From NCBI GenBank assembly GCA_028713915.1, contig JAQTNK010000013.1, positions 26,551 through 90,550 of the forward strand: DNA of 64,000 nt, written 5' to 3'. The notes under the pieces were generated by a model. It saw nothing but the letters and a program-made list of their open reading frames with translations, was not told where the DNA came from and did no database searches. Position numbers and translations under genes: made by a program. Every line of letters begins with the position of its first letter. Within the stretch, counting starts at the first letter, position 1. Positions 24,742 through 26,343 of the stretch are shown here, piece by piece. This DNA is from Rhodocyclaceae bacterium. Its GTDB lineage: Bacteria > Pseudomonadota > Gammaproteobacteria > Burkholderiales > Rhodocyclaceae.

Positions 24742-25941
24742 TCATTCCGAGCGCAGCGCCTCGAGCGGGTCGAGCAGCGCCGCCCGCCGCGCCGGCAGGA
24801 CGCCGGCCAGCAAACCGATGACGACGGCGGAGAGCTCGGCGGCGAGCGCGAACGACCACGGCGTATGCACCGGCAGGGCGGGCAGCACGAGCTTGATGAG
24901 GCCGGCGATCGACCAGCCCAGGGCAAGCCCGGCGATGCCGCCGATCGCCGCCAGCAGCGCGGCTTCGCCGAGAAACAGCAGCAGGATGCGCCGGCGCGTG
25001 GCGCCGATGGCGCGCAGCAAGCCGATCTCGCCGGTGCGCTCGGATACGGCGATGGTCAGGATGGTGAGGATGCCGACGCCGCCGACCAAAAGCGAAATCG
25101 CGCCGATGGCGCCGACGGCGAACGTGATGGTGTTGAGCACGGTGCCGAAGACTTCGAGCATCTTCTGCTGCGGCGTGATGGTGAAATCCTCGCGCCCGTG
25201 GCGGCCGATCAGCACGCGGCGGATGCCGTCCTCGACTTCGGCCAGCGGCGCCGACGAGGCATAGGTCACCTCGATTTCCATCAGCGTGTCGCGGTTGAAC
25301 ATTTCCAGCGCGCGGCCGACGGGGATGTAGACCGTGTCGTCGAGGTCGAAGCCGAGCACCTGGCCTTTGGGCGCCATGACGCCGACGATGCGGTAGCGTT
25401 CGCCGCCGATGCGGATGCGGGCGCCGAGCGGATTGGTGTCGCCGAAGAGTTCCGTCGCCACCTTGGCGCCGAGGACGACGAAGGCGCGCGCGCTGCGCGG
25501 GTCGTCGTCGGGCAGGAAGCTGCCGGCCGCCACCTTGGCGCGGAAGGTGTCGGTGAAATGGTGGCCGACGCCGTAGAGCGTGACGCGGCGCGAGCGCGTG
25601 GCAAACTCGACGTCGGCATTGCCCTGGATCAGTGGGTTGGCGAATTCGATGCTGGGCGCGTGCTGCAGCGCCAGGGCGTCTTCGATGGACAGCGGCCGCG
25701 AGGTGTTGATGGCGCCGAGCGAGCCGCCATGCGTCATGACGCGGCCGGGCGTGATGCCGATCAGGTTGGTGCCGAACTGGGTGAACTCGTCGATGACGAA
25801 CTGGTGCAGGCCTTCGCCGATGCTGGTGAGCAGGATCACCGAGGCGATGCCGACGGCGATGCCGAGCGACGTCAACGCCGTGCGCAGCCGGTGCGCAGTG
25901 ATCGACAGCAGCGCGAAGTGAAGGAAGTCGTCGAGTCTCAT
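24742..25941 (-). CDS. MacB-like ABC transporter permease (second permease)
   Basis: A 399-residue permease of the MacB/FtsX type. One N-terminal membrane helix (about 17-40, SLGIAVGIASVILLTSIGEG) is followed by a large periplasmic MacB-core domain (about 40-260). Three C-terminal helices follow, with the FtsX signature TGEIGLLRAIGATRRRILLLFL and the terminal PARRAALLDPLEALRSE. No ATPase domain is fused, so it should use the separate ATPase encoded at 30104-30775. It lies downstream of a homologous permease on the same strand, separated by 402 bases that hold a nested inverted-repeat element. Two related permeases suggest a heterodimer. Confidence 0.92.
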   Translation of the reverse strand: MRLDDFLHFALLSITAHRLRTALTSLGIAVGIASVILLTSIGEGLHQFVIDEFTQFGTNLIGITPGRVMTHGGSLGAINTSRPLSIEDALALQHAPSIEFANPLIQGNADVEFATRSRRVTLYGVGHHFTDTFRAKVAAGSFLPDDDPRSARAFVVLGAKVATELFGDTNPLGARIRIGGERYRIVGVMAPKGQVLGFDLDDTVYIPVGRALEMFNRDTLMEIEVTYASSAPLAEVEDGIRRVLIGRHGREDFTITPQQKMLEVFGTVLNTITFAVGAIGAISLLVGGVGILTILTIAVSERTGEIGLLRAIGATRRRILLLFLGEAALLAAIGGIAGLALGWSIAGLIKLVLPALPVHTPWSFALAAELSAVVIGLLAGVLPARRAALLDPLEALRSE

Positions 25942-26008
25942 CGCGGTTGTTCTCCGGCGTGCGGCGATGCGAAGAGGTGAACGATCCTATTCGCGCACTG
26001 TCGGCGCG

Positions 26009-26309
26009 CGCCAAGGACAGCGGGTGGCCGACTCCGTCCATGTCCCCCGGGCCGAAAAAGCGCCGGCCCTCCTCCTTTACTTCCCGGAGTCGGCCACCCG
26101 CCGCCCTTGGCGGGGCAGCACCGGAGGTTCCCGAGCGGGCTGGTGGGGCGCTCTGCTGCGCGCAGGTAAAGGAGGAGGAGGCCTACGCAGGCGGCCGACG
26201 GGGGGCGTAGGCAGGGTTTCGCGGACCACTGGTCCGCGCTGCCGGAGCCGGCTTGCTGTGCAAAGCAAGCCGTGGGAGGAGCGCAGCAGAGCGCCCCGCC
26301 GGCCCGCTC
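26009..26309. repeat. Nested inverted-repeat element between the two ABC permease genes
   Basis: The 402-base gap at 25942-26343 holds no gene-like frame but dense dyad structure. Arm A, 26009-26036, pairs with 26085-26112 (26 of 28; the inner 16 bases, CGGGTGGCCGACTCCG, are perfect). Arm C, 26133-26161, pairs with 26281-26309 (27 of 29, the other two U-G in plus-strand RNA). Inside C lie GCCTACGC/GCGTAGGC (26181-26188 with 26205-26212), a 9+1+9 palindrome at 26220-26238, and CGGCTTGC/GCAAGCCG (26249-26256 with 26265-26272). CCTCCTCCTTTAC at 26068-26080 also complements 26166-26178. This could be a miniature mobile element or structured RNA; no transposase or RNA family is recognised. Confidence 0.7.
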
Positions 26310-26343
26310 GTACGCACCCGTCCGAATGTCGTTATGTTTCATG

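Follow-up and report, generated by a model that had tools for sequence, protein, structure and literature searches.

Between two adjacent ABC permease genes of a Rhodocyclaceae bacterium lie 301 nucleotides that seem to fold back on themselves in a nested manner; what are they? In a first-pass annotation of the window, i.e. the whole stretch of 64,000 nucleotides analyzed here, this segment had been described as two long arm pairs accompanied by three inner hairpins, and a miniature mobile element, a large REP-type element and a structured RNA had been offered as readings. Both arm pairs are present, pair A at 26009-26036/26085-26112 (28 nt, 93% complementary) and pair C at 26132-26161/26281-26310 (30 nt, 93%), each arm of the latter being one base longer than claimed. 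They take the top ranks among the 31 inverted-repeat pairs of the whole 64-kb window (arms of at least 20 nt, separation of at most 400 nt). The three perfect inner hairpins are likewise found, at 26181-26188/26205-26212 (8 pairs), 26220-26238 (8 pairs) and 26249-26272 (9 pairs), the pairs being counted by eye. When 26005-26315 is folded as RNA, z amounts to -6.9 on the plus and -7.9 on the minus strand, and none of 100 shuffles folds equally well on either strand. The A hairpin alone, folded as DNA, yields z values of -6.2 for its own and -5.7 for the opposite strand (0/200 shuffles each). The locus is made up of the following parts:

24742-25941, minus strand: downstream permease gene, MacB_PCD and FtsX domains
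25950-25955, minus strand: Shine-Dalgarno-like GGAGAA shortly 5' of the start codon of the downstream permease, past the A side
26009-26112, minus strand: unit A hairpin, own sense minus, with arms, internal loop and inner stem (arm search, DNA fold, family-wide pairing)
26039-26048, minus strand: 3' loop motif of unit A, conserved, with minus-strand sequence GGGGGACATG (invariant in alignment A1)
26049-26069, minus strand: inner stem-loop of unit A, varying in sequence among copies
26068-26082, minus strand: 5' loop motif of unit A, conserved, with minus-strand sequence AAGTAAAGGAGGAGG (GTAAAGGAGGAG invariant in alignment A1)
26113-26131, no strand: spacer between units A and C, 19 nt
26132-26310, plus strand: unit C hairpin, own sense plus, with arms at 26132-26161 and 26281-26310, interrupted by a 72-nt repeat
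26164-26178, plus strand: conserved 5' loop motif of unit C, AGGTAAAGGAGGAGG
26181-26212, plus strand: 8-pair hairpin spanning the junction of the unit C inner region and the small repeat
26205-26276, plus strand: smaller second repeat, 72 nt, hairpin-rich, directly 3' of GGGGG in place of ACATG
26220-26238, plus strand: 8-pair hairpin within the small repeat
26249-26272, plus strand: 9-pair hairpin within the small repeat
26336-26343, no strand: outer C-side end, GTTTCATG, immediately following the upstream permease's stop codon
26344-27582, minus strand: upstream permease gene, MacB_PCD and FtsX domains

Both arm pairs belong to a single kind of unit, present here once in each orientation, a relationship that lay beyond the view of the first-pass annotation. 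The unit is a hairpin of about 100 nt with the plan arm–AAGTAAAGGAGGAGG–inner stem–CGGGGGACATG–arm, which occurs twice, the two occurrences being opposed. The second arm pair gives a nested impression because a separate 72-nt repeat has replaced part of its loop. Over 90 spacers, the distance between units has a median of 46 nt, 30 nt of arm having first been trimmed on each side.

In the following, G000 denotes the genome of the window, G002, G003 and G004 its congeners, G001 and further numbers other genomes, and L a locus. A search of G000 with the window element returned 124 local matches at E<=10, and thirteen places besides the window copy match 173-221 of the 366 query bases in one piece. 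The exact core pattern is encountered 32 times in this genome (17 forward, 15 reverse), while the reversed pattern used as a control is found nowhere in it. A core scan of named genomes led to at least 118 loci, among which 69 of 72 neighboring cores lying no more than 600 nt apart are in -+ order (loose pattern) and 62 of these 69 pairs are spaced by 80-139 nt. An arrangement unlike the usual opposed pair exists at L058 (G004:C51:37684-37884), where two A-type units of the same orientation lie about 160 nt apart and the flank is partly repeated, i.e. a tandem duplication. Rubrivivax, Hydrogenophaga, Rhodoferax, Variovorax, Aquabacterium, Sulfurisoma, Luteimonas, Pseudoxanthomonas and Lysobacter are among the matches listed, and the carrier genera are beta- and gammaproteobacteria. 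Two of 369 genomes of the class and nine of 300 genomes of the order carry the exact pattern, with the window's genome included in both numbers. Judged from such searches the distribution looks patchy, and exact patterns would undercount it. Viral contigs contain no exact core pattern, phages yield no match to an element from Caldimonas that is described below, and plasmids none to the window element; the plasmid search with the Caldimonas element hit three large Variovorax replicons. In the open PMC literature, searched by core oligonucleotides and by subject and judged from titles and the beginnings of abstracts, we found no paper naming this repeat.

For an assessment of how the hairpins evolve, we compared 161 distinct units, of which G000 contributed 24, congener loci five, the record of Candidatus Nitricoxidireducens bremensis MAG5 (L118) six and other named records 126. 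The match coordinates of L118 equal those of the congener G002, so that the window probably belongs to this genus as well, which NCBI assigns to Sterolibacteriaceae. At one register, 92.2% of the 22 arm positions are paired across these units, which are related by descent and not phylogenetically independent (G-T allowed), as compared with 55.5% when right arms are shuffled among units and 39-46% at other registers. The loop is near-invariant over the 161 units, which is in part built in because the loci were found with the loop motif as search key, while the arms diverge yet stay complementary. Alignment A1 consists of 71 units hand-picked from the first 100 of 132 eligible ones and a partial row for the window, which is short on one side and contributes almost nothing to the arm counts. 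All 26 arm pairs of A1 exhibit changes on both sides (shuffles: 22.5, with 26 reached in 2/500), 85.6% of the cells are paired versus 56.1% after shuffling (0/500 as high) and 37-46% with slid partners, and the covariation score is 0.737 versus 0.194 shuffled and 0.10-0.17 slid, whereby the slide control favors the chosen register because that register was derived from the same units. Two column pairs beside the loop are mostly unpaired (57/118 in 52/72 and 59/116 in 62/72 rows); a conserved imperfection therefore accompanies the loop. The A arms of G003 and the window, which occupy the same locus and were compared by hand, provide a small-scale example: three pairs have other bases in both arms yet remain paired, a wobble is replaced by Watson-Crick pairing in G003, and in one further pair both bases are different and do not pair in G003.

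Which nucleic acid is it that folds? The observation that the imperfect pairs of C wobble on the plus strand and those of A on the minus strand, already made in the first-pass annotation, is correct, and as unit A has minus-strand and unit C plus-strand sense, the odd pairs in both units are G-T wobbles on the AAAGGAGGAGG-side strand. This asymmetry extends to the family. On the purine-loop strand of 157 in-register units, G-T exceeds A-C in 116 and the reverse is true for three, with 38 ties, when positions outside the loop-side imperfection are counted; the totals are 214 G-T, 13 A-C and 60 other pairs, and the count including loop-adjacent positions stands at 206 versus 22. Were a read-through mRNA under selection, the bias would be expected solely in units oriented along transcription. 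Between codirectional genes, it is present in units along transcription (15 v 1, nine ties) and also in units opposing it (22 v 0, four ties), counts that rely on crude ORF picks and kin-related units and are thus strong without being independent trials. As opposed units share the G-T bias, strand-specific folding is not explained by read-through mRNA. From these comparisons we infer that the folded species is best taken to be single-stranded DNA. The same wobble trace would be left by a mutation bias specific to one strand, provided that the hairpin is temporarily single-stranded. Outward promoters in the spacers, considered as a rescue for an RNA reading, receive no support from hexamer counts: -10-like hexamers with at most one mismatch occur in 0/90 inter-unit spacers (4.9 expected from shuffles) and -35-like hexamers in 12/90 (14.6 expected), the spacers having a mean GC content of 64% and that of the window being just 19 nt long. 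Among 4227 Rfam families none matches the window at gathering score, and the matches below threshold are to two microRNA models (E 0.24 and 0.53). One structured RNA, the Betaproteobacteria toxic small RNA RF02278, has a single match above the cut-off at a different place in the same genome (L208, G000:C12:7753-7816, minus strand, 67 bits), outside the window. As it matches there and not in the window at gathering score, it was dismissed as the identity of the window element.

The permease junction itself speaks for insertion. The pair had been held to be normally nearly contiguous, and this is what the congeners reveal: the element is present in G000 and G003, while the junction is empty in G002, where the genes overlap by 4 nt, and in G004, where a gap of 9 nt separates them. 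It is also empty in the more distant G011 and G026, and other sequence resides there in G014, G035 and G439. At L248 (G439:C48:10500-14200) the junction houses a nucleotidyltransferase-like gene together with another small gene, the two looking MNT/HEPN-like by eye, and at L244 (G014:C1:1275000-1278300) an insertion of about 0.5 kb in which CCCTCTCCC-type palindromes enclose what may be a small ORF. Caldimonas mangrovi contains three copies that are pairwise 98.4, 98.7 and 99.7% identical over 316-317 bp and have sharp ends and unrelated flanks; a target-site duplication is not visible by eye in these three. Eight other Caldimonas genomes gave no match to either this element or its flanks, so that no empty site was found among them. 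The closest pair among 14 copies compared in G000 is 94% identical over 278 bp, and the closest among 15 regions compared in G001 is 96% identical over 270 bp. Several copies in G000 end in short imperfect ATGAAAC/GTTTCAT repeats (by eye), and arm sequence is not conserved. Other copies in the genome, empty sites in congeners and the near-identical dispersed copies of Caldimonas thus lend support to the earlier suggestion of a mobile or large REP-type element.

A candidate for the mobilizing enzyme could not be tied to the repeat among the known transposase families considered. Y1_Tnp is absent from G000 and from 8/16 other carriers, the Caldimonas genome with the near-identical copies being one of them, and in carriers equipped with Y1 no core is located within about 1.5 kb of any of the nine Y1 loci; on these grounds a RAYT/IS200 transposase was rejected as mobilizer. 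Y2_Tnp is encoded in 5/17 carriers and missing in 12, and a Y2 (IS91-type) transposase was therefore rejected as shared mobilizer. The five include G000 and the Caldimonas genome, in which it may still play this part. In Rubrivivax gelatinosus (L165), 2.5 kb lie between opposed units and might have represented an autonomous form; this region contains two small ORFs and no transposase by eye and was likewise discarded. The comparison for recurrent neighbor genes encompassed 693 crude ORFs, all against all.

With regard to placement, 81 distinct elements with sufficient flank in these loci were evaluated, of which 45 lie between codirectional, 16 between convergent and three between divergent genes, one has no near gene and 16 fall into ORFs, so that 65/81 are outside ORFs as predicted with a crude tool. 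The intergenic spaces of more than 80 nt at the same loci comprise 170 codirectional, 62 convergent and 58 divergent ones. Divergent placement accordingly accounts for 3/64 elements versus 58/290 spaces, and the element avoids divergent promoters. In G000, many copies (L001-L008, L010, L011, L013, L016, L019, L020) occupy the gap between the stop codon of one gene and the start codon of the following one. A start codon was picked for 14 copies; in 13 of them it lies at a distance of 130-153 nt from the A core, in 9/14 GGAG shortly precedes ATG, and a stop codon followed by a TGAAAC-like C-side end is seen by eye in 8/14 rows, including the window copy; in this reading several starts were re-picked and all stops identified by eye. 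Such stop-to-start placement may result from a preference for certain targets, from common ancestry of the copies or from a role in translation. The genes downstream of the G000 copies look functionally unrelated by eye, and this counts against a structured RNA. The C unit is upstream in all codirectional copies of G000 (10 v 0). A fixed orientation to transcription as a general rule was discarded, the corresponding numbers being 2 v 5 in congeners and 10 v 10 in other taxa (eight unclear).

Integron attC sites and the hairpin ends of IS200/IS605 elements are known as folded single strands whose identity is signaled by unpaired features. These have been likened to REPs (PMC8266576); the present repeat differs from them in that its motifs sit elsewhere in the fold and two opposed units are combined. 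Two REPs in inverted arrangement make up a REPIN, for which folding in single-stranded DNA or mRNA has been predicted (PMC3116915), and RAYT transposases are described as copying REPINs (PMC8049555). TnpAREP is described as acting on single-stranded REP and not on its complement, with conserved mismatches being needed in Escherichia coli (PMC8266576). Our repeat resembles the REPIN/BIME with RAYT systems, as portrayed in these sources, in forming inverted doublets of imperfect palindromes that are mostly extragenic and present in multiple copies (PMC3116915, PMC8266576). It also recalls REP in the strand asymmetry of its unit and the conserved stem mismatches (for REP: PMC3116915, PMC8266576), strand-specific recognition of the folded single strand being putative for our repeat. 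In contrast to REPINs, its units measure about 100 nt versus 20-60 nt for REP, the conserved signal is an internal loop instead of a 5' GTAG tetranucleotide with the arms being free to diverge, and a Y1/RAYT gene is lacking in G000 and 8/16 other carriers. No invariant column of A1 points to a 5' GTAG-like tag at the arm bases (30 nt on each side; further out by eye). Given the absence of a GTAG head in this range, the deviating unit size and the lack of an associated RAYT, we do not file the element as a REPIN. Palindromic repeats tagged with GTAG or CGTC, which are dispersed, often arranged as head-to-head or tail-to-tail dimers and reported also for Thauera, form superfamilies (PMC3733652) that are similar in being palindromic, dispersed and often dimeric. 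Their stems are given as mostly 6-9 bp with an unpaired terminal tag (PMC3733652), whereas no tag is seen at the base of our unit.

Taken as a whole, the element is in our judgment probably a REPIN-like dispersed two-hairpin DNA repeat, mobilized by a putative enzyme that would recognize hairpins of single-stranded DNA by their purine loop. Such an enzyme would be provided in trans and would read the purine internal loop on whichever strand bears it, and copying would take place when the loop-bearing strand is single, as in replication. In the window, the element came to sit behind the stop codon of one permease gene and ahead of the start codon of its neighbor. More tentatively, and with more doubt than conviction, we propose that the repeat may stand for a separate beta- and gammaproteobacterial class of single-stranded DNA hairpin elements with an invariant purine loop, served by an enzyme outside the Y1 HUH group (RAYT, IS200/IS605). 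Instead, the hairpins might work in the transcript, as intercistronic mRNA stabilizers, as attenuators or as sponges for proteins or ribosomes via the GGA-rich, Shine-Dalgarno-like loop. The strong fold and the covariation agree with this, G-T tolerance is expected of RNA hairpins as well, the uniform C-upstream orientation in G000 (10 v 0) is what a transcript function would also give, and many copies there sit between stop and start codons with GGAG before ATG in 9/14. We nevertheless consider it unlikely: units opposing transcription show a wobble bias of no lesser strength (22 v 0), the spacers have no evident outward promoters (0/90 -10-like), neither the congeners (2 v 5) nor other taxa (10 v 10) follow the orientation rule, and Rfam offers no match at gathering scores. 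Of the structured RNA suggested in the first-pass annotation it is hence the conserved fold that stands, while the strand asymmetry in opposing units and the missing Rfam family speak against the RNA.

Copies of about 0.3 kb that are dispersed and occur patchily would also suit an ordinary MITE, i.e. a non-autonomous relic of a double-strand DNA transposon with terminal inverted repeats that are long by chance. A transposase binding duplex ends should, however, conserve these ends, and here arm sequence turns over with pairing kept; a duplex model does not account for the strand asymmetry, and the target duplication was not seen in the three Caldimonas copies, all of which makes this explanation improbable. 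Finally, the repeat could be immobile at present, an old chromosomal binding site (for a nucleoid protein, gyrase or as a terminator-like insulator) selected at gene ends and moved by recombination alone. Placement away from divergent promoters and the near absence from phages, viral contigs and plasmids are in line with this notion, which we deem very improbable in view of the 98-99.7% identical copies with sharp ends and unrelated flanks and the empty sites in congeners. A REPIN-like family whose hairpins are larger, whose signal is an internal loop and which lacks RAYT in half of the carriers tested would suggest a second copying route for folded single-stranded repeats in bacteria. In addition, opposed units offer a natural test of selection on DNA versus RNA by means of wobble asymmetry, which could be extended to other palindromic repeats.

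The 72-nt repeat has a history of its own. It replaces the right loop motif of unit C in the window, following GGGGG where other copies have ACATG, and the same GGGGG/72-nt-repeat junction is found in three congener composites (L031, L033, L056). The orthologous element of G003 lacks it, and the likely order of events at the window locus, read from the sequences, is an empty junction, then the double hairpin and then the 72-nt repeat, which would later, probably, have taken over part of the C loop. With one intact and one damaged hairpin, the window copy is probably no longer a full substrate. Elsewhere in the family, other genera carry the 72-nt repeat by itself, and at several of the 12 loci listed it lies within or beside G-rich palindromes, as if it favored other repeats as targets. 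In the window and at L035-L041 and L043-L047, which belong to many genera of the family, it carries GTAG-, GGAG- or GAAG-like bases near its start.
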